From the NCBI GenBank assembly GCA_032622095.1, contig CP136068.1, forward strand, positions 47,176,443-47,240,442: 64,000 nucleotides of DNA, written 5' to 3'. Below, piece by piece: positions 617 through 19,782 of the stretch; the stretch's first letter is position 1; every line of letters starts with the position of its first letter. A program made the position numbers and the translations under genes. This DNA is from Siphonodentalium dalli (Eukaryota; Mollusca; Scaphopoda; Gadilida; Siphonodentaliidae). The notes under the pieces are model-generated. The model did not search any database. It was not told where the DNA came from and was given only the letters and a program-made list of their open reading frames with translations.

Positions 617-2183
617 CTAAGGGTGGATACATACATGCATGTAATTTCTGTATGTAAAATCCATGTATTTTACATGGTCACACCAATCATTGATAGCATT
701 AGTCGCCTGCGCGCGATCGGACAATTTTAACAGGCGAGACAAGTGAGAAGTTATAAGCCATTATCAAACTGACTGCTATCAAGAAATTTCAGGCCAGTCA
801 TAAATTCTTTCATGGATGCCGAAATGAATAAATCCTGTCTGATATATGTTGCTGTTTTTCACGAGTTTTAATTCATTTCGAAAAGTGGATTTGAGTCCAG
901 TGTTGAGTCCGTCGATTTTATACTTGATTTGTTTTTCGTCATTTCAGGGTCATCCAAAATAAAAATAAAATGTGCAAAATTTGAAGCTCTTTTAGGGCAA
1001 TTGTGATACACAAGTGTTTAGTGTCACATTAACAATCCGATATGGTGCTCTCATTCCTTGAATAACTGGCATTGGAAAATTAAGACAGACAATACCGGTT
1101 CGTTGAGATTCCTGGGATAGTTTCAGAACGAGCTCGTGTGATAATATTCAATTGGGATTTCCATGAAAATATCAATTACAGCGACAAAAAATTAATGCAG
1201 GTACAGCGTCGAAAGTAAAAAGAGTGACACCCCCCCCCCCCCATTTTTCACCCACAATTTACATAAGTTGAATTAACAGTATATGTTTCTCAAACCAAAG
1301 GTTGAACAAGTTATTAACTGTCACAATTTTAGCATGTACACGCTTGAATTATAACATTTTGGACCATAATCCATGATTGGACGAGAGGGCAGGGGGATGG
1401 TTCTCGAAAGCTTCGAATAACTAAGGGATTTAGTTGAATGTATTAGTCGGGATTATCTGGGCATGAATGTACAATATGTTTAACTTAAATATTCCACAGT
1501 TGTACATTTTGCGTATACATATATAACATAAGAGAGGAAAGGTGACGTTGTTGGGAACTCGTAGAGCAAGACAACCCTTTTCCCCGAATGAAGACACACA
1601 GCAACACTACCTTCTGTACTCTCAAATTTAAAGCTGTAATACTGTGTTCATAATTTCATGAATAGCATTAACTGCTGAATATTAAATTAATCACTCGTAG
1701 CAAACAGAGACGACAGAAATGACTGTCAACTATGATATTTATAAGTCAGGAGTGGCTTCGTGTCTTCATGGGTGGGGATCAGGACTCAGGGTGCTGCATG
1801 CCCCCACTCAACCCGTCGAGGAAATATGCAATAATCAGTCCGGTAGCTTCCGGGATAATATAGCACCCCATGCTGGTGATCATATCCCCTGCGTTGTCGA
1901 AATCATGGGGCCACCACTGGTAGAAAAATCAAGAGAAGACTGACAATGATTTAAACAGAAAGTTCAACAGTTGGGTTATCACGCGAACAATTATTTTAAG
2001 CGGCCTGACGACTTCGTTCAGTCAACGGGTCTCTGCAAGTTCAGAACTTGGCTCACTGTGGTCAAACATAGCCGCAATGATTGGGTTGTCAGCGGACACA
2101 TATTACATGCTCTGTATGATCCATGTAAAACGACAAATACACGATAATTACAGAGATTACATGCATGTGTGTATCCACCCTAA
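617..2183. mobile_element. DNA element nested in the left Helitron
   Basis: The left Helitron is interrupted by about 1.57 kb bounded by inverted ends: TAAGGGTGGATACATACATG near 618 and, inverted, the same sequence with small changes ending near 2183. The plus-strand Helitron copy (52440-52500 region) lacks the insert and continues directly between the matching flanks, so it is an empty-site control. The duplication looks like 2-3 bp including TA, but exact edges are uncertain. Short ORFs inside (for example 1719-1943) look random. No transposase is recognisable. Confidence 0.55.
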
Positions 2184-2599
2184 CTGGATTTTCTTGTATA
2201 TCAGAAGAAATTATATTTGACTGCACACTGTGACCACTATTTTTGAACAGGCCTTCCATATCTCTTGACAAATTGTACCTTTTTGTGGAAACTGTATTGA
2301 ACGGAACAGACTAAATTTTGTTATTATATATATGCAATCCTCTGACGGTTCGAGGTCTCTCAGTTTGCACGAATATATGTATCCCTTCAATAGAATGATA
2401 AATATACGTTTAATGCTTCTTCTAGTTATCTATTTTTGCTAGCTCATTGCGTGAATGCCTTTATTGCCATCCCCATATAAATATGACTGTTAAGAAGATA
2501 TAATTGTTCAAGTGACTTAATAATGTAGGTCACCATATGTCGGGATTGTGAAATGTGAACGCCCAACTACTTAAAATGATATGGAGATGGCCTGGTGAC

Positions 2600-4340
2600 T
2601 GTATATAACTTATATGTGGATATCGGCGAATAGCAATCTTATCAATGATAGTGCATATCCGCTCGCCATCCGTGACGCAAATGACACCAAATGTGATTTA
2701 CTTCATGATATATCATTAGAGAAAAACGTGTATGAATTTGGTGGAATTTGGTTTATGAAATCAATTGTTGACGCAACGCTGACTCGAACAACGCCATATT
2801 TCGAAGGTGATTAATTATGTATTCGTTTGGTGGAAATCAGCGACAAAACTATTTCACCATATTTTTTTAATTTTGCCGACCTCCCCCCTTTCTTCCCCTG
2901 ACACCAACAGCGTCATTTTAGAAAATTTTAACCCGCATCATTATCTTCCTTGTAAAAAGTTACCCCCCTTATAACGCCTTGGTGTCATCTCGATTGTACC
3001 GCGTGAAGTTATATATAGAACGCACACAGACCGACAAAAAGACAGACAGACAGCACGATTTGATTTCTTGTGTCATTTGAGAAGAACGTGTCTGAATTTG
3101 ATGGTAATTGGTACTAAAAATATTTTGTATCAGTTTTGGTGACCCTCCCGTCCCTATTTCGGACTCAAGCTGCACACACTAACACTCATTAGAAATTAGA
3201 GATGCATATATATGAAATTGGAGAAAATTGGCGAGTATACAAATTCATATCAAATTTAAGGTCCCCATATCTCTCACCCATAGGGCACCAATTTGGTGTA
3301 TCTAAACCACACGATAAGATTCCTCGTATCACGGAGAAGAATATGTATCAATCTGGTGGAAATCGGCACCAAACATATAGATATAATTTTTTGTGTCTCT
3401 CTCATCTCTATACACCACTGACTCGAATGGCCCCACTTGTCACATCCTTAAACCACACGATTGCACTCCTGATATCATGGAGATGATTGTTTATAAGTTT
3501 GGTGATAATCGGCCACTAAACAAATTGTTTTTATCAAATTTGGTGCCAATCCCTCCCCTCTACATCTCTCACTCAAACAGCACCACAATGGCGTCTTTAA
3601 ATCACGATTAGATTCCTCGTATCATGGATAAGAACGTGTATCAATTTGGTGGAAATTGGCGCTAAAAAAATTGTTCATCTATGTTGGTGCCCCTGTCCCT
3701 TTCAATGCAAACCTGACTCGAATGAGGCCACATTTGACAGATAAAAGCCACACCATTAGACTCCTCATACCATGTGGTGGCAATCGGCGACTTATTATCA
3801 AATTTAGTGCCCACCCCCTCCCAAACTCTCATCCAAAAACAACAATTTGGCTTTGTTAAATCGCACAATTAGATTCATTGTATCATAAAGAAGAATATAT
3901 ATCAATTTGGTGGAAATCGGCGCCAAAATTAGTTTGATTAATTTTGGTGCCCCTCTCCCCTTCTGTTCATCCCTGACTCAAACGACGCCACTTTTGACAC
4001 ATTTAAACCACACCGTTGGATTCTTAATATCATGAGGATGATTATATGTATGTTTCGTAGCCAATCGGCGACAGAAAAAAAATCCGCCCCGCCCCTTCCG
4101 GGCACACCAGACGCGAACGGCGCGACTTTTGCCATATTTAAACCACGCCATTAGATTCCTCATATTATGGGGATGATTATATATAAGTTTGGTGGCAATC
4201 GGCGACAAATTTGTTTTCTGCCCCTCCCCCTTTTCTGCCCCTGACAACAACGGCGTCACTTTAGAAAATTCTAACCCCGACCATTATCTTTCTCGTAAAA
4301 AGCTACTCCTAGTAAACCCCTTTGGCATCATCTAGATGGT
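2600..4340 (-). repeat. Dimeric tandem array inside the left Helitron
   Basis: Diverged units of about 145 bp alternate in two related forms, so the higher-order period is roughly 290 bp. Recurring phrases are TTTGGTGGAAATCGGCG, GATTCCTCGTATCATGG and CTGACTCGAATGGCC-like strings (for example near 3424, 3719 and 3979). The same array, inverted, fills the core of the other Helitron. Confidence 0.7.
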
Positions 4341-4421
4341 CCCCTGTGAATTTCTATAGAACACAGACAGACAGACAGACAGACAGACAGACCGACAGAC
4401 ATTCGCAAATATAGATATAGA

Positions 4422-5226
4422 TTAAATGACATTTCATAACTGAGTACTTAAAGTTCACTTTCTGTCTGAGTAATCTGAACCTACTCAGGATCCCAATTCA
4501 ACTGGTAAGTATTGTGATATCTGCTCCAGAACCGTAACATGGCAGTTATTGTATATACTCGATATCTATTTACATGTATAGGCCTTTTTTTATAAGATGG
4601 TTTGCGGATTTTTTTCCCAGAATAGTGGGTCGGTCGGACGGAAAAAAAAACATGGTTGGGAAAATAAATAAATACACAAACAGTCTGAAAACATGTTTTT
4701 TTTCCAACACTGTTTTATTTATACTAAGGAATTATAGATAATTCTAATATATTGCTATGTGATAGGACATATATTGGCTTGGAATCCTTGAATAAAGAGA
4801 AGTCACAGATGTCAGACATATGCACCATATTTTAAACTGCAGGTCGTGTGGTAGAGATGGTCCGTGTGTGGGTATTGAACTATCTGTATTGATAGTATTA
4901 TTAATATTGAATTGAGACAATATTATTAAAATGTTGATTATTTTTTATTAGTTCATTTAAATCTTCCTCTTCTTGGCACCGACTTTCACGGCGTTTCGGG
5001 GATATTGCCATTTGAATATAGCAGCCTGCACACGGCCTGAACATCAACTGACACGTACAGTCCAATCCGGAATATGTGTGATGTGTCGCCAGTTTGTAGT
5101 CATCAGACTATCTAAGCGCCACATCCTCATCCTAATGTTGAAGGCATATATCTGCCATAGTTCCATTATTGGACAACGTTCTTAACGATCGCATAGTTTC
5201 ACCTTTTCTGTTGAATACGACACAAA
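4422..5226. other. Non-coding flank left of the Polinton; half of an older repeat
   Basis: There is no gene. Position 4583-4612 carries AGGCCTTTTTTTATAAGATG followed by GTTTGCGGAT. The same string occurs inverted at 14292-14322 on the far side of the palindrome. The two halves may be the ends of one older element into which the Polinton inserted. The ORF at 4973-5185 shows no recognisable features. Confidence 0.5.
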
Positions 5227-5232
5227 TATATT
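5227..5232. other. Left target-site duplication TATATT
   Basis: TATATT here directly precedes the AGAAGAAT terminus. An identical TATATT at 14009-14014 directly follows the inverted ATTCTTCT terminus. A 6-bp duplication is the length known for Polinton/Maverick integrases. Confidence 0.85.
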
Positions 5233-5277
5233 AGAAGAATAGCCGTCTCGTTACCGTCACATCTAAAAATAGAATCT

Positions 5278-5517
5278 TTGGGGTCTAAAATTGGTTGTAC
5301 TAAAATATTCCCAAAACTTCCAAAATATCAAAACCCAAAAAAAAATTTCAAAACTTCAAAAATTTATTTTTTCAAAAAATTATTTTTTCCAAAAATTATT
5401 TTTTCCAAAAATTATTTTTTCCAAAAAATTTATAAATTTCCAAACTTCCAAATTATCAAAACCCCAAAATTTCCAAACTTCCAAATTATCAAAACCCCCA
5501 AAATTGTTTAAATAAAA
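5278..5517. repeat. AT-rich short tandem repeats, left arm
   Basis: Just inside the terminus are iterations of a 16-bp ATTATTTTTTCCAAAA unit, then a 33-bp unit (AAATTTCCAAACTTCCAAAT and on) present about twice. The ORFs across it are low-complexity Lys/Phe/Ile runs and not credible proteins. The right arm has one fewer 16-bp unit. Confidence 0.8.
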
Positions 5518-5562
5518 AATTTATAACGAGTTTTCGGTTTCTGATAAACTCGAAATTAAAAA

Positions 5563-6084
5563 ATGTCGAATGTTAAATTATTTGCGCGTAATATCTTTCG
5601 TAATATTTTTTGTTCAAATATTTTTCATGAATTTATTAATCGATGTTTAGAAAATAGCTTTATTGGACATTGTGACCATCGATATGAATGCATACATTCC
5701 AGTGTTTTATCGGACGCAGTTCATATAATTGTCATACCTGAAAATAGACACTATTACTTTTACATAAATAATAAAGAGCGTTTATTCTTTACACTCTCTC
5801 TATCCCATATGACAGGTGTGTATTATCGTGAATTATTGGAAGTATTGAGACTAACGGTCGAAAATTGTAATGTGAAATTAGAACCCTCCAGAATGAATTG
5901 TTCGCTGTACACGCAATCACACGCGACATTGGTCGTGTGTCACACCTTTGCTTTACCAAATGAATTATATTATTTCCCCGCTCACAGTTATATGGTATTC
6001 AGAAAACATATCGATTTAATGTCTGAACAAAACGGGTTAGTATCAATTAAGGTTGATAAACTGTGTCATTCACACGATAATTAG
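5563..6084 (+). CDS. Orphan 173-residue ORF, left arm of the Polinton
   Basis: This intact ORF lies near the element terminus and reads toward the hinge. I do not recognise the product. It is rich in Ile, Phe, Tyr, His and Asn, contains nine cysteines, and shows no signal peptide, clear membrane span or nucleotide-binding motif. The start codon follows an A-rich stretch (ATTAAAAAATG), a good eukaryotic context. The mirror copy at 13173-13694 translates identically, so either the duplication is very recent or the protein is under constraint. It is convergent with the ATPase gene of the same arm, which ends about 1.4 kb away. Base composition is more AT-rich than the ATPase gene. It may be a lineage-specific accessory gene or the 5' part of a truncated gene. 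Confidence 0.5.
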   Translation: MSNVKLFARNIFRNIFCSNIFHEFINRCLENSFIGHCDHRYECIHSSVLSDAVHIIVIPENRHYYFYINNKERLFFTLSLSHMTGVYYRELLEVLRLTVENCNVKLEPSRMNCSLYTQSHATLVVCHTFALPNELYYFPAHSYMVFRKHIDLMSEQNGLVSIKVDKLCHSHDN

Positions 6085-6304
6085 TTAGCCAAAACATGCA
6101 TACATATTACGTCAGGTCGTGAGACACTCAATTATAGAAATTGCTTTGATGACATTGTTATAACAACATTACGTAATAACCCCTTATCACTCCAGTCACA
6201 CTTACGATCATATACCGAAACTACAGGTAGCACCGATGATGTAACATTATATCACTGCTATTGTACCAATGATAGGTTCAGACATGTTCCATGTTTAGAA
6301 AAGA

Positions 6305-6361
6305 AAAGTTACCTATAATTCTGCTGTGGTTAAGCAGTCCATTAGTTAGGGCATACCTGTA
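6305..6361 (+). repeat. Half copy of the CAGTAATGCCC MITE inside the left arm
   Basis: The string AATTCTGCTGTGGTTAAGCA and its surroundings match the right half of the TA-flanked MITE family found at 22220, 31007, 35936 and 37722, with several substitutions. The mirror copy is at 12896-12952. Confidence 0.7.
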
Positions 6362-6380
6362 TGTAGGCCTACCAGTGGAT

Positions 6381-6558
6381 GAATAGTCTGCCGGAGAAGT
6401 ACTGTGTAGACAGGTCTTGTCGGTAAGAGAGTCAGACGAGTAGTGAAGGCTCGGCTATTAAAACATAGTAACGCGATAGCGAACATCAAACGAGTCTGCG
6501 CACGCATATCTGTCAAAGGATACAAGGGCAGTCATTGGTCAATTTATCCCCGGTGTCA
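6381..6558. repeat. Intra-arm direct repeat, distal copy (left arm)
   Basis: About 180 bp beginning AATAGTCTGCCGGAGAAG and containing ATTGGTCAAT (a CCAAT-box palindrome) recurs in the same orientation at 9265-9455, upstream of the ATPase gene. The copies differ by scattered substitutions and a short insertion. It may be a duplicated promoter module (inference). Confidence 0.75.
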
Positions 6559-7448
6559 GCTCAGTACCCAATCGGGACGAAGCCGAAGGTCAACTCATTT
6601 TTTTTTTGCTCATTATAGTACGTCACTTGGACATTTTATCAGTTTATCACGTCATCACTAAATGTGGCAATCGGGTATCCACCGATGCCTGCAATTTATT
6701 ATTTATAATAATTGGACTCATTGATCTCACGTAAATAATACTCTTAGTTGTTCCAATAAAATAGTTATCAAATTCGATCACCAATAGATTTGACTGTGGA
6801 ATATAATGACCTTTAACTTATTTATCGATCTATGTTAGAACATGGTCTTAACAAAAAACTTGACCATAACAAAAATTACCTTACATTTATGCATGAATCT
6901 AATTAGACCATGCGTAAATATTGTCAGCTTATCGTCTGATGAGCAAATCCGATGTTTATCAAAAATAGTACAACTTCCAGTTGGTAATTACTCTTACGAA
7001 TGAAGAGCGTTGAACATATACGAAATTACTACACGAATGAACTGAAATTTATATTTCACATCTTACCAACAACAGATACAGACATAGTCATAGTGTTATA
7101 CTATCTTACATGTACACACGCTATGACATCATTCGAAGGGGCACTACACTCAAGGAGTTAAAGTGACACGAAACAAGGGACGTGATGCAATATTGGTGTT
7201 TGAATATTAAAAGGAACACAAGACACTCTAAAGGGACACTCATTATGAATGAATGTTAACAATACAAGCGCAGTGGTTGAAAGTTAAAATGACAGATCAA
7301 TATTTAAGGGTCAAATTTTCGGGGCACTTAATGCACCTTTTATCATTACGTATCGTTTCTCACTCTACAATTCCCAATAATCCACACACTCTCTCCCTCC
7401 CCCAGCTTATAGATATATAACGAAAACGAGAATATCATGTTGATGAAG

Positions 7449-7454
7449 TTTATT
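7449..7454 (-). terminator. PolyA signal of the left ATPase gene
   Basis: AATAAA on the minus strand starts 6 nt after the stop codon of the left ATPase ORF. The mirror is at 11803-11808. Confidence 0.6.
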
Positions 7455-7459
7455 GAAAT

Positions 7460-9160
7460 TTAATCGTCCGAATTGTCATCACTTTCGCCAGAAGTGTCAT
7501 ATGTTACGTCCATGAATTTTTCTAGCATCGGTTTGTACTTTAATATTGACATTTTCACTGCATCATATTCTCCATAACCATTATTCAAATATTTGTCGAC
7601 TTTATCCATGACTCTGTTGTGCAGAGTCCCATTGCGCAGCTGCAGATACGATACTATTGTCCAAGCATAATCAGTCATAAAGTGTATCATATCTTTACTT
7701 TTAAGATCCTTGTCAGCTTGTTCTTTTGCTTCTGCGTCTTTAGGGCCATTTTCCTTATACGTGTCCACTTTATCACTCCATTCCTCACGTGTTTTATCTC
7801 TACTTTCATCACGCAAACTTTTGAAGTATTCATCTTCATTCAATTTAATTTCCTTATTCTGACTATCATCCGGGTCCTCAGTTAATTTTCGTTTTAACTT
7901 ATTTTCTTGACACCAGTTTTTTACGTGTCTCTGAACATCATAATGATCTGCGAACAAAAGCCCGCATTCATTACAAGGGTACGACATGTCTTCTTGAATG
8001 TCTCTGTTTTGATGGTTCTTCTTATTAATTTCATCGAGCTCACCAGGTGGCCGTATGTCGTTAGTATAGTCATTATGTTGACCCTGGGGCACAATATAAT
8101 TATATGTTATGCCCTTCTGTTGACCGGGGAGTTCTCTGTCATCGTATTTCATCGCATTATGTTGACCCTGGGTCTCAGTGTCTTTTGTATGTTTTATCAT
8201 CCCATTCTGTTCATCTGGGTGTTCTCTGTCTTTTTGGAGATTATATTTCATGCCATTCCATTCACCCCTATGTTGGTTCGTGTCCTCTTTTAGTACATTC
8301 TGTCGCAGACGTAATGTGTCCGGTGTTGCGGCTTTTAAATCCACCAGTAGGTAACCGTACGGTTCACTCGTCGCTTCCGAAAACTCTCGAACCATACGCT
8401 GAGGACATTCAGGATACATCTGTCTTGATAATGTTGAAATTAATCCCTTGTCGATTGGGTTATTGAACAATACCAAATATTGACAATTTCGTCGTTGCGT
8501 TGGATCTTTGTTGTAGTAGAAATTCTGGTTCAAACTTATCAAAGATAAGTTCAAATGGTGACTTCCTTCGGAATGCAAATCATTAACTCTCTGGTCTTTT
8601 GATGAAGTTTGCATCAAGTCATCGAGTATAACTAGATTTTTATACCGGGGGTTGATAAGCGAATCCAAGTTTGCTGGTATTCCTCGTATAAAGTTGACCT
8701 GAGGGGTGACGGTATACTTTAATTCGTCATATAGGGGCTGCCAATATTTATAAAACCATATTATTCTGTCAGGTGCGGGTGATATTTTTGAGGCAGACTT
8801 TTGTAGTAAGGTTTTCACGAAGTATGTCTTACCACAAGATGTCGGTCCACTTACACATGCCGTGAATGGATGCTTGAAAATAAAATCTTCATGGACATTG
8901 GCCATTGGATCATCTAAGCAGGATGTTATGTCGCTTTGTTGCTGTGTCCCCTGCTGGTGTTGTAGTATCTGGTGTGGCTGTAATGGCTGTTGTTGTGGCT
9001 GATGATACTGCTGCCTGTTGCTGCTACGGTCTGTTGCTGTTGCTTGGTGCTGCTGCTGGGGGTGTCGGTTAACAAACTCAGTGTGCTTAGATTGTACATG
9101 TCTTATCAAATCATGGTTCCGCACATACCCCCTAGAGCAAATTGAACACTGGTGCTTCAT
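7460..9160 (-). CDS. A32-like DNA-packaging ATPase with zinc fingers (left arm copy)
   Basis: This 566-residue protein is the predicted motor that would pump element/virus DNA into a capsid, an FtsK-HerA superfamily P-loop ATPase. Order of parts: an N-terminal C2H2 finger (C5, C8, H21, H26); a Gln/His-rich linker (about 34-75); Walker A GPTSCGKT (105-112); Walker B VILDD (177-181); a downstream polar strand LISLNQN (207-213) in the expected sensor position; a charged region with repeated GQ(H/Q)N-like phrases (about 300-370); a second finger with C2HC spacing (C396, C399, H412, C417); an acidic Lys/Asp-rich C-terminus. Linker and fused fingers make it longer than a minimal packaging ATPase. 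The ATG overlaps a TATAAA string, so the start could be elsewhere, but it places the first finger right at the N-terminus. It differs from the right-arm copy at only four residues (82, 334, 367, 473). Both copies are unbroken. Confidence 0.85.
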   Translation of the reverse strand: MKHQCSICSRGYVRNHDLIRHVQSKHTEFVNRHPQQQHQATATDRSSNRQQYHQPQQQPLQPHQILQHQQGTQQQSDITSCLDDPMANVHEDFIFKHPFTACVSGPTSCGKTYFVKTLLQKSASKISPAPDRIIWFYKYWQPLYDELKYTVTPQVNFIRGIPANLDSLINPRYKNLVILDDLMQTSSKDQRVNDLHSEGSHHLNLSLISLNQNFYYNKDPTQRRNCQYLVLFNNPIDKGLISTLSRQMYPECPQRMVREFSEATSEPYGYLLVDLKAATPDTLRLRQNVLKEDTNQHRGEWNGMKYNLQKDREHPDEQNGMIKHTKDTETQGQHNAMKYDDRELPGQQKGITYNYIVPQGQHNDYTNDIRPPGELDEINKKNHQNRDIQEDMSYPCNECGLLFADHYDVQRHVKNWCQENKLKRKLTEDPDDSQNKEIKLNEDEYFKSLRDESRDKTREEWSDKVDTYKENGPKDAEAKEQADKDLKSKDMIHFMTDYAWTIVSYLQLRNGTLHNRVMDKVDKYLNNGYGEYDAVKMSILKYKPMLEKFMDVTYDTSGESDDNSDD

Positions 9161-9264
9161 TTATACTTGACTAAAATGTCTCGGTATATGGATTTCCTTT
9201 ATACAAATGTTCCTTATAACCTAAAAATATGTCATGTCCGTATGTTTGATAACTTTATGTAGAT

Positions 9265-9455
9265 GAAATAGTCTGCCGGAGAAGCACTGTGTATACGGGG
9301 AATCAACAGGTCTTGTCGGTAAGAGAGTCAGACGAGAAGTGAAGTATCGACTATTAAAACATAGTAATGCGATAGCGAACATCAAACGAGTCTGGACACG
9401 CATATCTGTCAAAAGATACAAATAGCCGTCATTGGTCAATCTATCCTCGGTATCA
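9265..9455 (-). promoter_or_regulatory. Probable promoter module of the left ATPase gene (direct-repeat copy)
   Basis: This is the proximal copy of the intra-arm repeat, ending about 105 bp upstream of the ATPase ATG. It contains the CCAAT-box palindrome ATTGGTCAAT (9431-9440). A CRE-like TGACGTAA lies further out at about 9508-9515. The promoter role is inferred from position. Confidence 0.45.
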
Positions 9456-9520
9456 CTTTTCGTTTTACAAAATCAATTTCACCGAGAGGTTCCCTCGTCA
9501 TTTGTAGTGACGTAATTGTG

Positions 9521-9527
9521 GCACCGC

Positions 9528-9558
<31 letters not shown>

Positions 9559-9737
9559 ATTGCGGTATTTGCCGGCGGCGGCGGCATTGCGGTATTTGCC
9601 GCCGGCGGCGGCGGCATTGCGGTATTTTACTGCGGCGGCTGCATGCGGACCCCGCAGTAAAATACCGCAATGCCGCCGCCGCCGGCGGCAAATACCGCAA
9701 TGCCGCCGCCGCCACCGCCGCCGCCGGCGGCGGTGCC
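9521..9737. repeat. GC-rich palindromic hinge of the element
   Basis: The centre consists of GGC/GCC trinucleotide runs interleaved with ATTGCGGTATTT units: three on the left and two on the right. The arms close on TGCGG (ending 9635) and CCGCA (starting 9652) around a 16-nt spacer. A single strand would fold into a very stable hairpin. The Ala/Arg-rich ORFs across it on both strands are low-complexity by-products and are not called. Confidence 0.85.
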
Positions 9738-9802
9738 ACAATTACGTCACTACAAATGACGAGGGAACCTCTCGGTGAAATTGATTTTGTAAAACGAAAA
9801 GT

Positions 9803-9993
9803 GATACCGAGGATAGATTGACCAATGACGGCTATTTGTATCTTTTGACAGATATGCGTGTCCAGACTCGTTTGATGTTCGCTATCGCATTACTATGTTT
9901 TAATAGTCGATACTTCACTTCTCGTCTGACTCTCTTACCGACAAGACCTGTTGATTCCCCGTATACACAGTGCTTCTCCGGCAGACTATTTCA
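9803..9993 (+). promoter_or_regulatory. Probable promoter module of the right ATPase gene
   Basis: This is the mirror of 9265-9455, with the same CCAAT-box palindrome, about 105 bp upstream of the right-arm ATPase start. Confidence 0.45.
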
Positions 9994-10096
9994 TCTACAT
10001 AAAGTTATCAAACATACGGACATGACATATTTTTAGGTTATAAGGAACATTTGTATAAAGGAAATCCATATACCGAGACATTTTAGTCAAGTATAA

Positions 10097-11797
10097 ATGA
10101 AGCACCAGTGTTCAATTTGCTCTAGGGGGTATGTGCGGAACCATGATTTGATAAGACATGTACAATCTAAGCACACTGAGTTTGTTAACCGACACCCACA
10201 GCAGCAGCACCAAGCAACAGCAACAGACCGTAGCAGCAACAGGCAGCAGTATCATCAGCCACAACAACAGCCATTACAGCCACACCAGATACTACAACAC
10301 CAGCAGGGGACACAGCAACAAAGCGACATAACATCCTGCTTTGATGATCCAATGGCCAATGTCCATGAAGATTTTATTTTCAAGCATCCATTCACGGCAT
10401 GTGTAAGTGGACCGACATCTTGTGGTAAGACATACTTCGTGAAAACCTTACTACAAAAGTCTGCCTCAAAAATATCACCCGCACCTGACAGAATAATATG
10501 GTTTTATAAATATTGGCAGCCCCTATATGACGAATTAAAGTATACCGTCACCCCTCAGGTCAACTTTATACGAGGAATACCAGCAAACTTGGATTCGCTT
10601 ATCAACCCCCGGTATAAAAATCTAGTTATACTCGATGACTTGATGCAAACTTCATCAAAAGACCAGAGAGTTAATGATTTGCATTCCGAAGGAAGTCACC
10701 ATTTGAACTTATCTTTGATAAGTTTGAACCAGAATTTCTACTACAACAAAGATCCAACGCAACGACGAAATTGTCAATATTTGGTATTGTTCAATAACCC
10801 AATCGACAAGGGATTAATTTCAACATTATCAAGACAGATGTATCCTGAATGTCCTCAGCGTATGGTTCGAGAGTTTTCGGAAGCGACGAGTGAACCGTAC
10901 GGTTACCTACTGGTGGATTTAAAAGCCGCAACACCGGACACATTACGTCTGCGACAGAATGTACTAAAAGAGGACACGAACCAACATAGGGGTGAATGGA
11001 ATGGCATGAAATATAATCTCCAAAAAGACAGAGAACACCCAGATGAACAGAATGGGATGATAAAACATACAAAAGACACTGAGACCCAGGGTCAACAGAA
11101 TGCGATGAAATACGATGACAGAGAACTCCCCGGTCAACAGAAGGGCATAACATATAATTATATTGTGCCCCAGGGTCAACATAATGACTATACTATCGAC
11201 ATACGGCCACCTGGTGAGCTCGATGAAATTAATAAGAAGAACCATCAAAACAGAGACATTCAAGAAGACATGTCGTACCCTTGTAATGAATGCGGGCTTT
11301 TGTTCGCAGATCATTATGATGTTCAGAGACACGTAAAAAACTGGTGTCAAGAAAATAAGTTAAAACGAAAATTAACTGAGGACCCGGATGATAGTCAGAA
11401 TAAGGAAATTAAATTGAATGAAGATGAATACTTCAAAAGTTTGCGTGATGAAAGTAGAGATAAAACACGTGAGGAATGGAGTGATAAAGTGGACACGTAT
11501 AAGGAAAATGGCTCTAAAGACGCAGAAGCAAAAGAACAAGCTGACAAGGATCTTAAAAGTAAAGATATGATACACTTTATGACTGATTATGCTTGGACAA
11601 TAGTATCGTATCTGCAGCTGCGCAATGGGACTCTGCACAACAGAGTCATGGATAAAGTCGACAAATATTTGAATAATGGTTATGGAGAATATGATGCAGT
11701 GAAAATGTCAATATTAAAGTACAAACCGATGCTAGAAAAATTCATGGACGTAACATATGACACTTCTGGCGAAAGTGATGACAATTCGGACGATTAA
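10097..11797 (+). CDS. A32-like DNA-packaging ATPase with zinc fingers (right arm copy)
   Basis: This is the mirror of the left-arm gene, 566 residues, reading away from the hinge. Both zinc fingers, the Walker A motif (105-112), the Walker B motif (177-181) and the acidic tail are all intact. Relative to the left copy it has F for L at 82, Q for H at 334, I for N at 367 and S for P at 473, none of them in a catalytic motif. A TATAAA overlaps the ATG and an AATAAA follows the stop by 5 nt. The two genes are divergent across the hinge, about 940 bp apart. Whether either is expressed cannot be read from sequence. Confidence 0.85.
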   Translation: MKHQCSICSRGYVRNHDLIRHVQSKHTEFVNRHPQQQHQATATDRSSNRQQYHQPQQQPLQPHQILQHQQGTQQQSDITSCFDDPMANVHEDFIFKHPFTACVSGPTSCGKTYFVKTLLQKSASKISPAPDRIIWFYKYWQPLYDELKYTVTPQVNFIRGIPANLDSLINPRYKNLVILDDLMQTSSKDQRVNDLHSEGSHHLNLSLISLNQNFYYNKDPTQRRNCQYLVLFNNPIDKGLISTLSRQMYPECPQRMVREFSEATSEPYGYLLVDLKAATPDTLRLRQNVLKEDTNQHRGEWNGMKYNLQKDREHPDEQNGMIKHTKDTETQGQQNAMKYDDRELPGQQKGITYNYIVPQGQHNDYTIDIRPPGELDEINKKNHQNRDIQEDMSYPCNECGLLFADHYDVQRHVKNWCQENKLKRKLTEDPDDSQNKEIKLNEDEYFKSLRDESRDKTREEWSDKVDTYKENGSKDAEAKEQADKDLKSKDMIHFMTDYAWTIVSYLQLRNGTLHNRVMDKVDKYLNNGYGEYDAVKMSILKYKPMLEKFMDVTYDTSGESDDNSDD

Positions 11798-11802
11798 ATT
11801 TC

Positions 11803-11808
11803 AATAAA
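11803..11808 (+). terminator. PolyA signal of the right ATPase gene
   Basis: AATAAA begins 6 nt after the TAA stop and mirrors 7449-7454. Such a tight stop-to-signal spacing is typical of compact viral or transposon genes. Confidence 0.6.
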
Positions 11809-12698
11809 CTTCATCAACATGATATTCTCGTTTTCGTTATATATCTATAAGCTGGGGGAGGGAGAGAGTGTGTGGATTATTGGGAATTGTAGAGTGAGAA
11901 ACGATACGTAATGATAAAAGGTGCATTAAGTGCCCCGAAAATTTGACCCTTAAATATTGATCTGTCATTTTAACTTTCAACCACTGCGCTTGTATTGTTA
12001 ACATTCATTCATAATGAGTGTCCCTTTAGAGTGTCTTGTGTTCCTTTTAATATTCAAACACCAATATTGCATCACGTCCCTTGTTTCGTGTCACTTTAAC
12101 TCCTTGAGTGTATTGCCCCTTCGAATGATGTCATAGCGTGTGTACATGTAAGATAGTATAACACTATGACTATGTCTGTATCTGTTGTTGGTAAGATGTG
12201 AAATATAAATTTCAGTTCATTCGTGTAGTAATTTCGTATATGTTCAACGCTCTTCATTCGTAAGAGTAATTACCAACTGGAAGTTGTACTATTTTTGATA
12301 AACATCGGATTTGCTCATCAGACGATAAGCTGACAATATTTACGCATGGTCTAATTAGATTCATGCATAAATGTAAGGTAATTTTTGTTATGGTCAAGTT
12401 TTTTGTTAAGACCATGTTCTAACATAGATCGATAAATAAGTTAAAGGTCATTATATTCCACAGTCAAATCTATTGGTGATCGAATTTGATAACTATTTTA
12501 TTGGAACAACTAAGAGTATTATTTACGTGAGATCAATGAGTCCAATTATTATAAATAATAAATTGCAGGCATCGGTGGATACCCGATTGCCACATTTAGT
12601 GATGACGTGATAAACTGATAAAATGTCCAAGTGACGTACTATAATGAGCAAAAAAAAAATGAGTTGACCTTCGGCTTCGTCCCGATTGGGTACTGAGC

Positions 12699-12876
12699 TG
12701 ACACCGGGGATAAATTGACCAATGACTGCCCTTGTATCCTTTGACAGATATGCGTGCGCAGACTCGTTTGATGTTCGCTATCGCATTACTATGTTTTAAT
12801 AGCCGAGCCTTCACTACTCGTCTGACTCTCTTACCGACAAGACCTGTCTACACAGTACTTCTCCGGCAGACTATTC
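12699..12876. repeat. Intra-arm direct repeat, distal copy (right arm)
   Basis: This is the mirror of 6381-6558 and has the same orientation relationship to 9803-9993 within the right arm. Confidence 0.75.
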
Positions 12877-12895
12877 ATCCACTGGTAGGCCTACA

Positions 12896-12952
12896 TACAG
12901 GTATGCCCTAAATAATGGACTGCTTAACCACAGCAGAATTATAGGTAACTTT
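12896..12952 (-). repeat. Half copy of the CAGTAATGCCC MITE inside the right arm
   Basis: This is the mirror of 6305-6361. It differs from the left copy by at least one substitution (AAATAATGG against the complement of CCATTAGTT). Confidence 0.7.
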
Positions 12953-13172
12953 TCTTTTCTAAACATGGAACATGTCTGAACCTATCATTGGTACAATAGC
13001 AGTGATATAATGTTACATCATCGGTGCTACCTGTAGTTTCGGTATATGATCGTAAGTGTGACTGGAGTGATAAGGGGTTATTACGTAATGTTGTTATAAC
13101 AATGTCATCAAAGCAATTTCTATAATTGAGTGTCTCACGACCTGACGTAATATGTATGCATGTTTTGGCTAA

Positions 13173-13694
13173 CTAATTATCGTGTGAATGACACAGTTTA
13201 TCAACCTTAATTGATACTAACCCGTTTTGTTCAGACATTAAATCGATATGTTTTCTGAATACCATATAACTGTGAGCGGGGAAATAATATAATTCATTTG
13301 GTAAAGCAAAGGTGTGACACACGACCAATGTCGCGTGTGATTGCGTGTACAGCGAACAATTCATTCTGGAGGGTTCTAATTTCACATTACAATTTTCGAC
13401 CGTTAGTCTCAATACTTCCAATAATTCACGATAATACACACCTGTCATATGGGATAGAGAGAGTGTAAAGAATAAACGCTCTTTATTATTTATGTAAAAG
13501 TAATAGTGTCTATTTTCAGGTATGACAATTATATGAACTGCGTCCGATAAAACACTGGAATGTATGCATTCATATCGATGGTCACAATGTCCAATAAAGC
13601 TATTTTCTAAACATCGATTAATAAATTCATGAAAAATATTTGAACAAAAAATATTACGAAAGATATTACGCGCAAATAATTTAACATTCGACAT
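13173..13694 (-). CDS. Orphan 173-residue ORF, right arm of the Polinton
   Basis: The translation is identical to the left-arm ORF at 5563-6084 and the ORF is intact. Function is unknown. It is convergent with the right-arm ATPase gene across the non-coding spacer. Confidence 0.5.
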   Translation of the reverse strand: MSNVKLFARNIFRNIFCSNIFHEFINRCLENSFIGHCDHRYECIHSSVLSDAVHIIVIPENRHYYFYINNKERLFFTLSLSHMTGVYYRELLEVLRLTVENCNVKLEPSRMNCSLYTQSHATLVVCHTFALPNELYYFPAHSYMVFRKHIDLMSEQNGLVSIKVDKLCHSHDN

Positions 13695-13739
13695 TTTTTA
13701 ATTTCGAGTTTATCAGAAACCGAAAACTCGTTATAAATT

Positions 13740-13965
13740 TTTTATTTAAACAATTTTGGGGGTTTTGATAATTTGGAAGTTTGGAAATTTTGGGGTTTTG
13801 ATAATTTGGAAGTTTGGAAATTTATAAATTTTTTGGAAAAAATAATTTTTGGAAAAAATAATTTTTTGAAAAAATAAATTTTTGAAGTTTTGAAATTTTT
13901 TTTTGGGTTTTAATATTTTGGAAGTTTTGGGAATATTTTAGTACAACCAATTTTAGACCCCAAAG
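13740..13965. repeat. AT-rich short tandem repeats, right arm
   Basis: This is the mirror of 5278-5517 with one 16-bp unit fewer and a one-base insertion near 13918. It accounts for the shift in the left/right coordinate sum toward the termini. Confidence 0.8.
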
Positions 13966-14008
13966 ATTCTATTTTTAGATGTGACGGTAACGAGACGGCT
14001 ATTCTTCT

Positions 14009-14014
14009 TATATT
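14009..14014. other. Right target-site duplication TATATT
   Basis: This second copy of the 6-bp duplication immediately follows the ATTCTTCT terminus. Confidence 0.85.
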
Positions 14015-14791
14015 GTTTGACCGAATTTGCGGGCGCGGCCATGTTTATGTACCAAAAGCGGAAGTTCTAATAGGGGAATTCCCCATGTGTAGTTGCCATA
14101 GTGTAAAAATAGGAATAACAGAAACGGACGATTTATGCAGTTTATATTTCCTATTTTTGTCGACATCACGATCAACGATGTTGCTCAATGAAATCAATAT
14201 TTTTATTTTTATGTCATCAGGTGGGCTTGTAAAGGATCGGCGTCAAAAAATAAAATGAAATTGAAAAACGAAAATGTTCGGTCGGTCGGATCCGCAAACC
14301 ATCTTATAAAAAAGGCCTTATCACCGCAAACGCCTTTAGGCACTTTCATTTGTTTTCTCCCAATAGATATGCCACATAGTTGAGCATTGTCTCTATTTAA
14401 ACAAGAATAATGATATGTATAGACATACAAGCCTGCATGTTCTGATAGTTGCGAGAAATAAGTATATATAGGATACAACTTAAGACGTGTTTACAGTTTA
14501 ATATCACTAGCTAACAGCAACTATAGAATGTACGTAAGATAGCGATATTAAACTACAAACAATGATTAAGGTGTAGCCTACTTATAACCATTTATTGCAA
14601 CTTTAAGTAATAATGACATATTTCGAAAATATTTTAGTGAATCAATCTGATAATTGTGTATCCAGACAGCATGTCGACTGGGAGTATATGGACATTACGA
14701 ATAGTGTCTAAAACTCCAATAAATACGGTAGCACATGTTCTGAAAACACAAGTTCGCGCATTTGTAAATAAACACCTAAAAAAAAGCCCCA
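14015..14791. other. Non-coding flank right of the Polinton
   Basis: The flank carries the inverted partner (14292-14322) of the AGGCC...TTTGCGGAT string found at 4583-4612, next to GGTCGGTCGG. No gene is supported. The ORFs here are short and featureless. Confidence 0.45.
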
Positions 14792-15498
14792 CCCCGTATT
14801 ATATTCCGTAATATTTTATGAGATATTTGATTGATTTTAACGAAACTGTACACAAATGGTTAGTGAGATCTGATAAACAACCTGTGTGAGGCACCGTCCT
14901 GTAAATTATGTTATGGCCGGCTGAGCATGAATTGAATGGAAGAGGGGTGCTTTTCAAAATTTGCAAAACACTGACATAGAGTGGACAGTCACTCCATTGT
15001 TCACACAAATTGTTACTGGCTGTAAATGTGTTATAAATGTGACAGTGAGTCCATGATAACATGCGTGTCATCTTCGGGACGCAATGTTCCTGCTGCATTC
15101 CCAGGCCATTCAGTCTAACCACACACCTTTGGAATGACACCTTGAAGTTTCATGCTGTGAGCGACACAGAGTTATTGAAATCAGTCTCTTTGAAACCATT
15201 TTTCAGTAAACCATTGTTCCCACCTTGTAGGCCATTGAGGTACCATGACATAAGGATGTGCCAAGCATGTGCGAGAAGTGGGGACCAAGGCACATCTGAA
15301 TGTCTGATCACTCTACCTTTGTTTTTGCAACTTTTGAAAAGTGCCCCTCTTCCATTCAATTTGTGCTCACTCAGCCATATCTCATCTCACAGCACAGTAA
15401 TGAGCACACTTGGTGTCGTTGGTTCCACAAACCATTTGTGGAAACTTTCATCAAAATCTATCCAATATCTCATAAAATATTACCGAATATATTAGGGG
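14792..15498. mobile_element. Foldback MITE, about 0.7 kb
   Basis: The left part (GTAATATTTTATGAGATAT, then ACAAATGGTT, then ATTGAATGGAAGAGGGG) reappears in inverted order and orientation on the right (15340-15498). The arms are diverged, suggesting an old copy. The ORFs at 15061-15495 and opposite are products of this symmetry. Confidence 0.6.
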
Positions 15499-16439
15499 TA
15501 AATTACCATCCCTCCTATAACTGAGAGCCTTATCACGTCCGTGCTTCGATACTGTGATGGACACCCCCTGATAAAATGGAACCACGTTCCTGCCTCGATG
15601 TGTTATGATAAGAGTAGTAGATCAGTGTGAAAGCATAGGATGGGCACAATATATATAATGTTATACCATCAAAATAATATTTTGTTTTCATAAACTGAAT
15701 GGTTGTAATTTGTGAAAACAATGATACCAAATTGGTTGTAGTACTCGATATTACACTGACTTGTTCTTACATACACACTCTACAAACGAACATTTTTTAG
15801 TTAACTTTGCGCAGACAAGTGGTCATCAACTTAGAAATCCGTGTACCGATTGGATAGCTCTGATAAGCGATCAACCTCTCAACTTATGATCGGTTAATTC
15901 TTTTGTAACTTTGGCTTGCCGTGATTCAATATATTGTGAATCACTCACAGGTGACGGTTTACCCGTAAGCAATCTACAATAATCAACAGTTTATCTTTGT
16001 GAAATATGAGAGTTTTTGTTACCTCATCGTTTCATTGTACCGGCGATATCACTAATCACAAAAATAATAGCACGCATTGTAACTTTCCCAAATTCCCATA
16101 GAAATTGCTGTCAGTTATTTTAGCTCTACATGTCAACAATAATGACAACGTGAGCTTGTATGTGGTGAAAATATTTGTGTCAACTTATCGGTATGAAATT
16201 TCCGACTGTTGAGAAATATTTTGACCAACGTTGGGGGCACCCACCAAGCCGTCCAACACCCCACATGTCACACCCCGGCGTCGTCGAAGAAGTCAGTCTG
16301 GTTTTGAAGTTATCATATTGACTAATGTTCATTTTGGGGTAAACGGTAGTTAGCATGTGTTTTATAGCCTAAGTCATTGACAACCATGTGCCCCTATACA
16401 GCTTTCCCAAAGGATTGCCAAGCATTGACCGTGTGTGTC

Positions 16440-16443
<4 letters not shown>
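15499..16443. other. Non-coding DNA, nothing recognised
   Basis: AT-rich sequence without a credible ORF, RNA gene or structured repeat. Confidence 0.4.

Positions 16444-16494
<51 letters not shown>
16444..16494. repeat. (TA)n microsatellite
   Basis: An uninterrupted TA run of about 51 bp. It gives rise to spurious Tyr-Ile ORFs on both strands. Confidence 0.95.
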
Positions 16495-16497
<3 letters not shown>

Positions 16498-17887
16498 CCG
16501 TTCATTACTCGTTATGCCGACATGTGTGCAAATGTACCACGAACTCCATGTCTGTACAACAGCCTCTTTAAAACTCCGGCGATTATCCAAGAGACTGCCT
16601 CTAACACTATCGCTACCATCAGACGAACGTGGTAATCTACTTGGTATAATAGCAGAAACGACTCGTTTTCTTGTATCAGAACAGTGTATAGCCAGCCACT
16701 GTATGTATAATATGATAGATAATATGCAGGTATTTTTTCTAAGCGCGCATTCTGGAGCAGCCTTTCTATATTTATCACAAGAACAGATTGCCATTGAAAT
16801 TTACCCACGGTGGCCGTTTGATAGATGAGCCATCGTCAATTGGAAGTGGAACGCTCAGTAACATGTATATATCAGCATATGTTAAAGACAAAGATCCAGT
16901 TTACTTAAAGGGACTCAATGCATTCGAAGTGGGTTCCTGTGAAATAACATAAACGTCGATAAAACAACTGTCATCAGCAAGTATATATATGAAACAATAT
17001 ATTGAGTTTTGTTATTTTCAGTACAAATAACTCTCCAATAATGAGATGTTGGATGCCAAACCATCGTGATGTATAAATACTATAAATTACTGTTATACTG
17101 CAAATAACGACACAAGTCCAATGATATGCCAAAAAGTAATCAACATTTCATGGTAGGCATTGACAAAGGTCAAAATATTGAGAAATATTCTGAAAATCAT
17201 ATTCATGCGAAATTTAGTTATTCGAGAACTATCAATAATAATTATTAGAACAAACAATGGATTTTAAGACGTTTTAGAGGTTGAAATTAATGTTTTCTTT
17301 TCTGTCCCTTTCGGTACAAAGAACTTCGAGAAAATAATTAATAATTTCACACAACAATCCAATAAGCAAATATCTTATTGGCGTGGCACTATGCGAGTAG
17401 ACTTAATTTTTGCCAACTGTTGCAGGGGGGGGGGGGGTCATTCACTTTTTTCCATACAGTAGGCCGGGGTGGGTGGTTCAGCCGCGAAAAAAGTCACCTT
17501 TTTCCAAGTGGTCACAGTTTTTTCCTCTTACAACATTTCTGCAATATAATTGCCTCAAAGTGTTCAGCAACGTTGTTATGGTATGTATGATGCTTTAGGT
17601 CAGGGCTTAGGGGGTAGTTAGTGTGGATATAGGCATAATGCTTCTCAGAAATCCCGGTTACAAACCAACACTCACAATTTCGTCTTTTGCATCAGATCAC
17701 ATTGTCAAGTACCAACACCACTTGTTCAAGATGAAAATGGACAGCTATGACACCCATTATTAAAGTAAATAAAAATGAATAAAGTTATTCATTTATATCA
17801 TTAATGTTTACTCATTAGACCTGATCAGACATCATAAGAGGCAAAACATGGAAATCTCATCATGATAGAAAGTATTGAATGCTATTT
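16495..17887. other. Non-coding DNA
   Basis: No gene is supported. A G-run of about a dozen bases lies at about 17426. The ORFs that cross the TA run extend into this stretch but show no protein-like features. Confidence 0.4.
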
Positions 17888-18402
17888 AAAGGTGGATTAT
17901 CTCTTTGTAAACATGTATTATATAGTTACCAGGGTATAAAATATTAGATTTGAATCGAAGACTCCTGTCCGGAAATGCTTCTATCGATTAATATTAATTT
18001 TATTTCGAATATTTTCTGGTCTAAAAAGGTGTGTTTGTTCAGGTAACGAACAATAGTGGTTACTGTTAACAGAGACCAGAATTTTTTTTGTACAATTTTG
18101 TCACAAATAAACGTTAATTATACTCATTATCGCTTATATATGTGGAACAAAACAATACAAACAATCAATCTGGGACATTTGACTTTCGGTGCGTAGCCAT
18201 AGGAACAGCCCAGTGCTCTATATCGCATGGTCTGTTCTAAAAATAGACACATAAATGGTCCCGATTTGATATTCGAAATAAAATCAATATATTAATTGAT
18301 AGAAGCTTTTCCGGACAGGGGTATTCAGTTCATATATATTATTTTATACCCACGCAACTATTTAAAATTTGTTATTTAAAGAGATAATCAATCTTTAAAG
18401 CC
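17888..18402. mobile_element. Foldback MITE, about 0.5 kb
   Basis: The left end TTAAAGGTGGATTATCTCTTT and inner TCCGGAAATGCTTCTATCGA are matched by inverted, diverged copies at 18260-18402. No ORF is present. Confidence 0.6.
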
Positions 18403-19782
18403 ACATCCAGATTTTTTAGTTTAATTTATTGGGGTTTTTTTTGGACACAATTTCATGCTGATCAATCTGTTAAACGCCATGTTGTCAGATGGTATAAGAT
18501 CGATTCGTGTGGGTCCATTACTATTTAGCATAAATGTTTTGCCTAAATTTTTATTTTATACTTTCGATACAGTTGTATTTGAAGTGATTACAGACAAGCA
18601 TTGGAAATATGGTAAAATGTTCATATAACTTGTTTACAAGTCATGAGTCAATTGATAAACAAAAACAAACAGGATAACAATGGGTGCCGCAGGTTTATAC
18701 GATTCTTATCTGTTCTCAGACTTTATAACTGAAACAAATACCAAGCCTAAATGGTGTGAGACTACAGATTTTTAGGTAAAACGTGGGTGGGTACCCTGCA
18801 TGAAATTGGAAAAAAAATTACTTCAAATAAGGGGTGATTTCGCTGGATTTTGAGGTAAAAAGGGGGTGGGTACCCCGCATGAAATTGGAAAAAAAATTTC
18901 AGCCTACTGTCATGGCACTTTTTTCCGACCCCCCTGACTGTTGAGTTAAATTTTAATTGCATAACATAACATCATACCCACATATACTATAATGGAAAAT
19001 AAAGCAGTAACAAATATTCCAGCCAAATGAAAACAAATGTTGATATGCAGTGTAGTCCACTCAAGCAAGGAGCAATCGACTGGAATTAGGCCAAAGTGTC
19101 AACTGACAATGGTGGTCAGATTTAACTTAACTTTGTCAGCTTAAACATATTTCATCGCAGCCCAATTTTGCATGTTCGGCAGTCATGACAAGGACATTCT
19201 CAGATATTGAATATTATTTATGGGTAGTTGCCTTTCAAAATGAAGATAATCGTTACATTTCACGACTCAAGAATAATTAAGTCTCCTCTCATGGTCTTCA
19301 TATATGATATCGTTGATACTTGAACTGCTCTTAAGAACAAAATATTTTAAAGAAGTTCTTGGTGCCTAAAAACAGTGAAAATGTAACTTTTTGTCATGCC
19401 ATAAGAGGATATGTAGTTATAATTCCGAACCGTTTGATGATTCTTAATTATTGTGTCACAATAATTACGTTACATTACGTATAAATACTATGCTATTACA
19501 GCCCAAAAAAATAGTGTATTATATGTTTGCGTATATCGAAGTTTAATTTTGAACAAATCTGCACCGGACAGCTGTTATTCCTGGACAACTGTTACTGCGA
19601 CAAAATCCACGTGCAATTTCCAATCACACGAACCGTGTCAAGGGGCGTCGTTTTTCTGTACGCCAATGACTATTTTTTGCCCACAGAAAATGTTCGTAAA
19701 CGTCTCATTTATCGATATTTATCGGAATTTTTCATCTGTATCAATGTAGCTTCTCCTTGTATATACAAATGCGTTTTAAGTC
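18403..19782. other. Non-coding DNA with a short direct duplication
   Basis: About 45 bp containing GTGGGTACCC and GCATGAAATTGGAAAAAAAA occurs twice in tandem (18773-18822 and 18850-18897). No gene is supported. Confidence 0.5.

Follow-up and report, generated by a model that had tools for sequence, protein, structure and literature searches.

Related Systems and the Palindromic Locus

Palindromic defective genomes with duplicated ends are known from adenovirus, and protein-primed replication could make such palindromes; to our knowledge, these defective genomes include no integrated, multicopy and gene-bearing lineage. The genome of the scaphopod Siphonodentalium dalli (GCA_032622095.1) holds an element that can be compared with them. 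In a stretch of 64,000 nucleotides of contig CP136068.1 (positions 47,176,443 to 47,240,442 of the forward strand; hereafter the window, numbered from its first letter), positions 5233-14008 form a Polinton-like inverted duplication of 8,776 bp. With Polintons (Mavericks) this element has in common a 6-bp target site duplication (TSD), AG...CT termini, a terminal inverted repeat (TIR) of ~1 kb at 89% identity and a homologous packaging ATPase (31% identity over 206 aa, E-value = 3e-30). Unlike the Polinton compared, it measures 8.8 kb instead of 16.3 kb, is palindromic throughout, has a central GC-rich hinge and an ATPase enlarged by zinc fingers, and no polymerase, integrase or capsid-size frame was seen in it. 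The hinge resembles the inverted terminal repeats (ITRs) of parvoviruses such as adeno-associated virus (AAV) and minute virus of mice (MVM), which form a two-lobed (T-shaped), GC-rich fold with heritable asymmetry; here, however, the fold is central and not terminal, and no replication-endonuclease gene was matched with the proteins searched (see below).

AAV also produces symmetric snapback genomes (PMC8235507). They are like the present element in being self-complementary, with one genome end on both sides and with a need for helper functions in replication, but they are subgenomic particles in a virus population, whereas we describe a multi-locus integrated lineage with an interior and TSDs of its own. 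Bidnaviruses, according to another source (PMC4061559), are small elements said to have acquired Polinton TIRs, and in this they are comparable; they differ in having their own polymerase and in ITRs that form no hairpins. The same source contains the proposal that Polintons replicate by protein priming via a single-stranded intermediate (PMC4061559). In a partly covered literature, the titles and opening lines of abstracts reported neither palindromic Polintons nor a multicopy lineage of integrated snap-back genomes. The present lineage has a fair chance of representing a new kind of replicon.

A Family of Palindromic Insertions

The element probably belongs to a satellite (non-autonomous) Polinton lineage that propagates as a self-complementary inverted-dimer genome, replicated by helpers via a snap-back strand and inserted by a helper integrase. 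A first-pass annotation of the window had described a whole-element palindrome of 8.8 kb with correct termini, a target duplication and a GC-rich hinge joining the arms, and all of this was borne out. The palindrome is real and its coordinates are exact: two mutually inverted arms of ~4.4 kb each (5233-~9640 and ~9640-14008) meet in the hinge (Table 1), the outer ends are Polinton-type (AGAAGAATAG.../...CTATTCTTCT, also written AGAAGAATAGCCG...CGGCTATTCTTCT) and the 6-bp TSD TATATT is exact on both sides. Outside the hinge the arms have private differences, nine substitutions plus a repeat unit of 16 bp; the MAFFT alignment gives 10 substitutions. Each arm starts with the Polinton TIR (arm positions 1-1070), continues with an interior of ~3.2 kb that contains the ATPase and extends to ~4270, and ends in the hinge.

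The genome (2.23 Gb, nine contigs) was searched with four queries, part of the candidates being scored in each case: 18 of 3,824 for one arm, 77 of 5,300 for the ATPase, 40 of 1,603 for the terminal 330 bp and 69 of 1,596 for PF03175. All 18 loci scored with the arm were read and comprise the window element, 16 other complete palindromes and a derivative, L026. The 17 complete palindromes are 8,284-9,151 bp long, and an exact 6-bp TSD flanks each of them (17/17, with 16 different hexamers). The search for further copies that had been recommended for this genome was thus run and gave 16 complete palindromes with exact TSDs of their own. The 77 places scored with the ATPase protein, all uninterrupted with open frames of 565-567 aa, fall into 45 loci, namely 32 head-to-head pairs (gaps of 821-1,150 bp) and 13 single frames. 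Four of the latter had already been read (L016, L017 and L018, where one frame is broken or shortened, and L026); seven have a second arm beside the hinge, in one the second arm is reduced to terminus and hinge, and another is cut just beyond the hinge. Together with L010, where the ATPase is broken in both arms, there are 46 loci, 43 of them two-armed and three derivatives; loci known only from the ATPase search were counted without reading the hinge or the TSD.

L026 is a duplicate of the window locus ~1 Mb away, in which both flanks are shared and the inner part of one arm is replaced. The duplicated segment covers 3484-19011 of the window (the window locus and its flanks) and is repeated in inverted orientation on the same contig (L009, L026).

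Of nine further TIR pairs with their middles read, five have a palindromic centre, and two of the remaining four hold an off-centre core (L040, L043). The TSD is exact in six of the eight pairs tested and, by eye, also in a ninth (L033/L034). Several element types with partly different interiors therefore have the TIR and the hinge in common. At L045/L046 (C4:135632014-135639654) the inverted repeat reaches beyond the element, the flanks being inverted copies of each other over at least 24 bp. L042 and L044 are related TIR-flanked elements with a different reading frame that has a zinc-finger-like start (by eye), and other cargo genes may therefore exist.

Candidate Helpers and Coding Content

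The terminal 330 bp gave 41 matches. One pair of TIRs, with 99.2% identity over 1,121 bp, spans 16.3 kb on contig C2 and delimits a Polinton with the TSD TATATA. It encodes an integrase with rve and chromodomain and a polymerase with DNA_pol_B_2 (PF03175, E-value = 7e-39); the P-loop matches of its ATPase frame are weak and below the cut-offs, and no capsid domain was matched in the parts read (three pieces, with ~4.8 kb left out). Many of the 69 PF03175 places lie in frames of ~950 aa, and another three TIR matches lie within 5.3-6.3 kb of a polymerase, so that plausible helper Polintons are abundant in the genome. The window element is a non-autonomous Polinton derivative, having its TIR in common with polymerase-bearing elements and no polymerase or integrase frame of its own that could be seen. 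The distinct class of palindromic non-autonomous Polintons suggested earlier fits the findings in this genome.

A full-length Polinton with the same terminus and ATPase, for which a search had been suggested, was found in part: the C2 element supplies the terminus (89%), while its ATPase is related only at the low identity given above. The description of the element as two inverted copies of a single Polinton end proved too simple. The end of the C2 Polinton matches the window arm over positions 1-1070 and then no longer, and all scored places with the inner 3.2 kb and its ATPase belong to palindromic loci or to deletion derivatives of these (45 loci). All 77 ATPase places are over 300 kb away from the 69 polymerase places scored. 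The match list for the TIR end is partial and lacks the right end of the window copy, so that we do not conclude that matches to single ends are solo arms.

The 566-aa ATPase frame is intact in 29 of the 34 arms of the 17 complete copies. The protein of the window matches Pox_A32 with 25.3 bits (cut-off 22.8) and also contains C2H2 fingers. Outside the TIR, only the ATPase and two shorter frames on its antisense strand reach 100 aa, and no large frame other than the ATPase is conserved in the arm (spliced genes possible). The arms hold no frame of the size of a protein-primed DNA polymerase B and no second frame of major-capsid size; no capsid proteins or protease were seen in them, the shorter frames lying outside the domain search. 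Two proteins were searched; rve is not among their matches (spliced genes remain possible), no replication endonuclease (HUH/NS1) is among their Pfam and PHROGs matches (shorter or spliced frames were not covered), and no relatives were found in viral contigs and phages. Each arm had been credited with an intact ATPase and a 173-residue open reading frame (ORF). Both are indeed present and intact, but the ORF was rejected as a gene: it lies within the TIR and, of the 17 copies, the window copy alone has it intact, so that it is probably not a gene.

Matching of Arms and Exchange of TIRs

Between copies (left arms, 136 pairs) the TIRs differ by 1.3-15.2% (median 5.7%) and the interiors (1395-4270) by 0.03-0.7% (median 0.31%), with the step in divergence at arm position about 1050-1200, which is the end of the TIR. 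Within each copy the two TIRs differ by at most 0.53% (17/17), in every case less than from the nearest other copy, and whole-arm pairs are monophyletic in 17/17. The TIR as a mutation hot spot is disfavoured, because its arm-arm differences (29 in 1,070 positions) are only slightly denser than those inside (63 in 3,200; 17 copies). Variants were called against the window arm, setting aside columns where the window's own arms differ. In the interior, 34 variants occupy both arms of every copy that has them (13 of these variants occur in at least two copies), 46 are present in one arm of one copy and none in one arm of several copies; the corresponding numbers for the TIR are 246, 16 and 1, with seven mixed. 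New changes, whole TIRs included, thus mostly end up on both arms, and what still differs between the arms seems to have arisen mostly after insertion.

Matching arms would likewise be produced by gene conversion that acts after insertion between the arms of an ordinary cut-and-paste or fold-back transposon, much as in long chromosomal palindromes. Since the duplication of the window locus the arms have evolved largely independently, the window arms differing from each other as much as from the complete arm of L026 (about 10 substitutions each), which argues against fast gene conversion in the chromosome and indicates little concerted evolution since. Two derived bases shared across arm identity in the window and L026 leave room for a rare event, by which some conversion or inversion may occur. 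The 6-bp TSD and the AG...CT ends are Polinton-type, and we regard such a transposon as an unlikely source of the family.

An Inherited Hinge

The GC-rich hinge is present in 16 of the 17 complete copies and consists of TGTAGTGACGT, a CGG/ATTGCGGTATTT minisatellite and a core. In 12 of the 16 copies the core has one and the same 57-bp sequence, which folds as two lobes. Variant cores, some of them without the T-shaped fold, occur in L015, L018 and L023, by eye in L040, and in L037, L038, L041 and L043, whose centres are partly or largely different; in the window copy the core is partly deleted. In 10 of the 16 copies the stem beside the core has CAG in place of CGG, always on the GGGGTCC side; for this count the window copy was oriented by hand. 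The mismatch is found on the same side in all four further core-bearing loci with both sides read (L037, L038, L041, L043). Being confined to the GGGGTCC side, it reveals an inherited asymmetry that is retained in the hinge and, for the most part, not in the long arms. A 'flip/flop' of the hinge was set aside as evidence because a palindrome is readable in either direction; the sole evidence taken is that the stem mismatch is linked to the GGGGTCC side. L017 is an 8.4-kb palindrome whose arms differ by one substitution and several indels.

A core of two lobes on a stem in most copies, with an inherited one-sided mismatch, would also suit a parvovirus-like rolling hairpin, in which a 4.4-kb genome closed at one end by a T-shaped hairpin is nicked by a replication endonuclease and the palindrome is its dimer. 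We nevertheless consider this improbable. The two searched proteins matched no endonuclease family and the arm offers the ATPase as its one large conserved frame (spliced genes apart), the outer ends are Polinton TIRs, and palindromic copies without an intact core exist (the window copy and L017).

Proposed Mode of Propagation

For the satellite Polinton lineage that we favour, we infer the following cycle. The protein-primed polymerase of a helper would start at either of the identical ends, and the displaced strand would snap back into a hairpin of ~4.4 kb with the GC-rich hinge as its turn. Copying of this hairpin would restore the 8.8-kb duplex, and repair or copying would tend to equalise the arms; a TIR gained by recombination on one arm would come to stand on both. 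A helper integrase would then insert the duplex, mobilisation in trans being suggested by the TSD and the termini. The snap-back step would explain why the arms are alike, why TIRs are exchanged on both of them and why the hinge escapes equalisation; the helper integrase would explain the TSDs and Polinton termini. The ATPase may, speculatively, act in packaging of, or interference with, the helper.

Snap-back had also been invoked in the first-pass annotation, as the origin of a by-product formed once. Each palindrome would then be a fresh by-product of a full-length Polinton, integrated once and dead, like the defective genomes of adenovirus and AAV. Such an origin would agree with the Polinton ends held in common, with the symmetric snapback genomes that AAV makes (PMC8235507) and with L017, whose different, hinge-less centre indicates that new junctions can form. 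Fresh by-products are expected to have varied Polinton ends and junctions, whereas here the 3.2-kb interior is common to the copies at ~99.7% over 17 insertions, the same 57-bp core recurs in 12 of 16 hinges and the ATPase is near no scored polymerase. In addition, a hinge with a conserved core is inherited. The interpretation as a by-product formed once is superseded, and we judge it highly improbable. The palindrome of the window is not due to chance. Palindromes are a classic artefact of sequencing or assembly (missed adapters, chimeric reads), but the family is almost certainly not one and a missed adapter is very unlikely, given exact TSDs with differing flanks at 17/17 loci, exact TSDs in six of eight further TIR pairs, private arm differences and 16 other complete copies.

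Several observations weigh against the satellite lineage. The searches scored part of their candidates, four of the nine further TIR pairs are not palindromic or not at their middle, L017 is a palindrome without hinge and spacer, and no extrachromosomal form of the element was seen. Purifying selection on the ATPase is not significant (both-arm changes 13 non-synonymous/7 synonymous vs. between-arm changes 29/6, Fisher p = 0.19), and L010 has lost the frame in both arms. Arm equalisation is incomplete: at columns 266, 277, 517 and 3319, two to four copies agree in which two bases stand on the two arms and, apart from one copy at column 277, in the phase of these bases to the hinge; two of the columns lie in AT-rich repeats. 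On the interior alone, just 6 of 17 copies have arms nearest to each other, because the interiors are so young. Finally, ordinary panhandle repair of TIRs occurs in adenovirus and could be the source of TIR matching here, the TIRs of the C2 Polinton also being 99% identical; it could explain the TIR part but not the interior changes in both arms.

A more far-reaching interpretation, which we put forward tentatively and with somewhat more doubt than belief, is that of a distinct replicon: a heritable snap-back satellite with one 4.4-kb arm as its information, an obligate palindrome, a dedicated hinge of fixed polarity, its own ATPase, and TIRs freely swapped among helpers because self-copying would set any new end on both arms. 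A multicopy lineage with a self-complementary genome would be an indirect, natural record of the single-stranded Polinton intermediate, and the arm-arm differences may date each insertion, much like long terminal repeats. The family also suggests a Polinton satellite, a small element equipped with a packaging-type ATPase of its own in a genome with many uninterrupted helper polymerases. Helper parasitism or defence thereby becomes testable. It further warns that true long palindromes can be wrongly thrown out as artefacts.

Features of the Window

The features of the element are listed in Table 1.

Table 1. Coordinates of the palindromic element and its parts in the window.
Feature	Position	Strand	Remarks
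TSD TATATT, left	5227..5232		
Left Polinton-type TIR (arm positions 1-1070)	5233..6302	+	89% identity to end of 16.3-kb C2 Polinton
173-aa ORF within TIR	5563..6084	+	Intact in 1/17 copies; probably not a gene
Direct repeat of left arm, TIR-side copy	6410..6525	+	93% to 9306-9421
566-aa protein, C2H2 zinc finger and A32-type packaging ATPase, left arm	7460..9160	-	
Direct repeat of left arm, hinge-side copy	9306..9421	+	
GC-rich hinge: TGTAGTGACGT...ACGTCACTACA, CGG/ATTGCGGTATTT minisatellite around centre	9503..9754		
Remnant of two-lobed hinge core	9629..9658		Partly deleted
566-aa zinc finger/packaging ATPase, right arm	10097..11797	+	Domains by near-identity to left-arm protein
Right TIR	12955..14008	-	One 16-bp repeat unit fewer than left; inner limit inferred from left arm
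173-aa ORF, mirror copy	13173..13694	-	
TSD TATATT, right	14009..14014		

Two other repeats were noted in the window. A ~9.5-kb satellite array with units of 67, 50 and 117 bp occupies 40830-50404. At 56119-60750 there is a second, more diverged inverted structure, with arms of ~1.5 kb that are 76-94% complementary in pieces and a centre of 40-42-bp minisatellites with strong strand skew.

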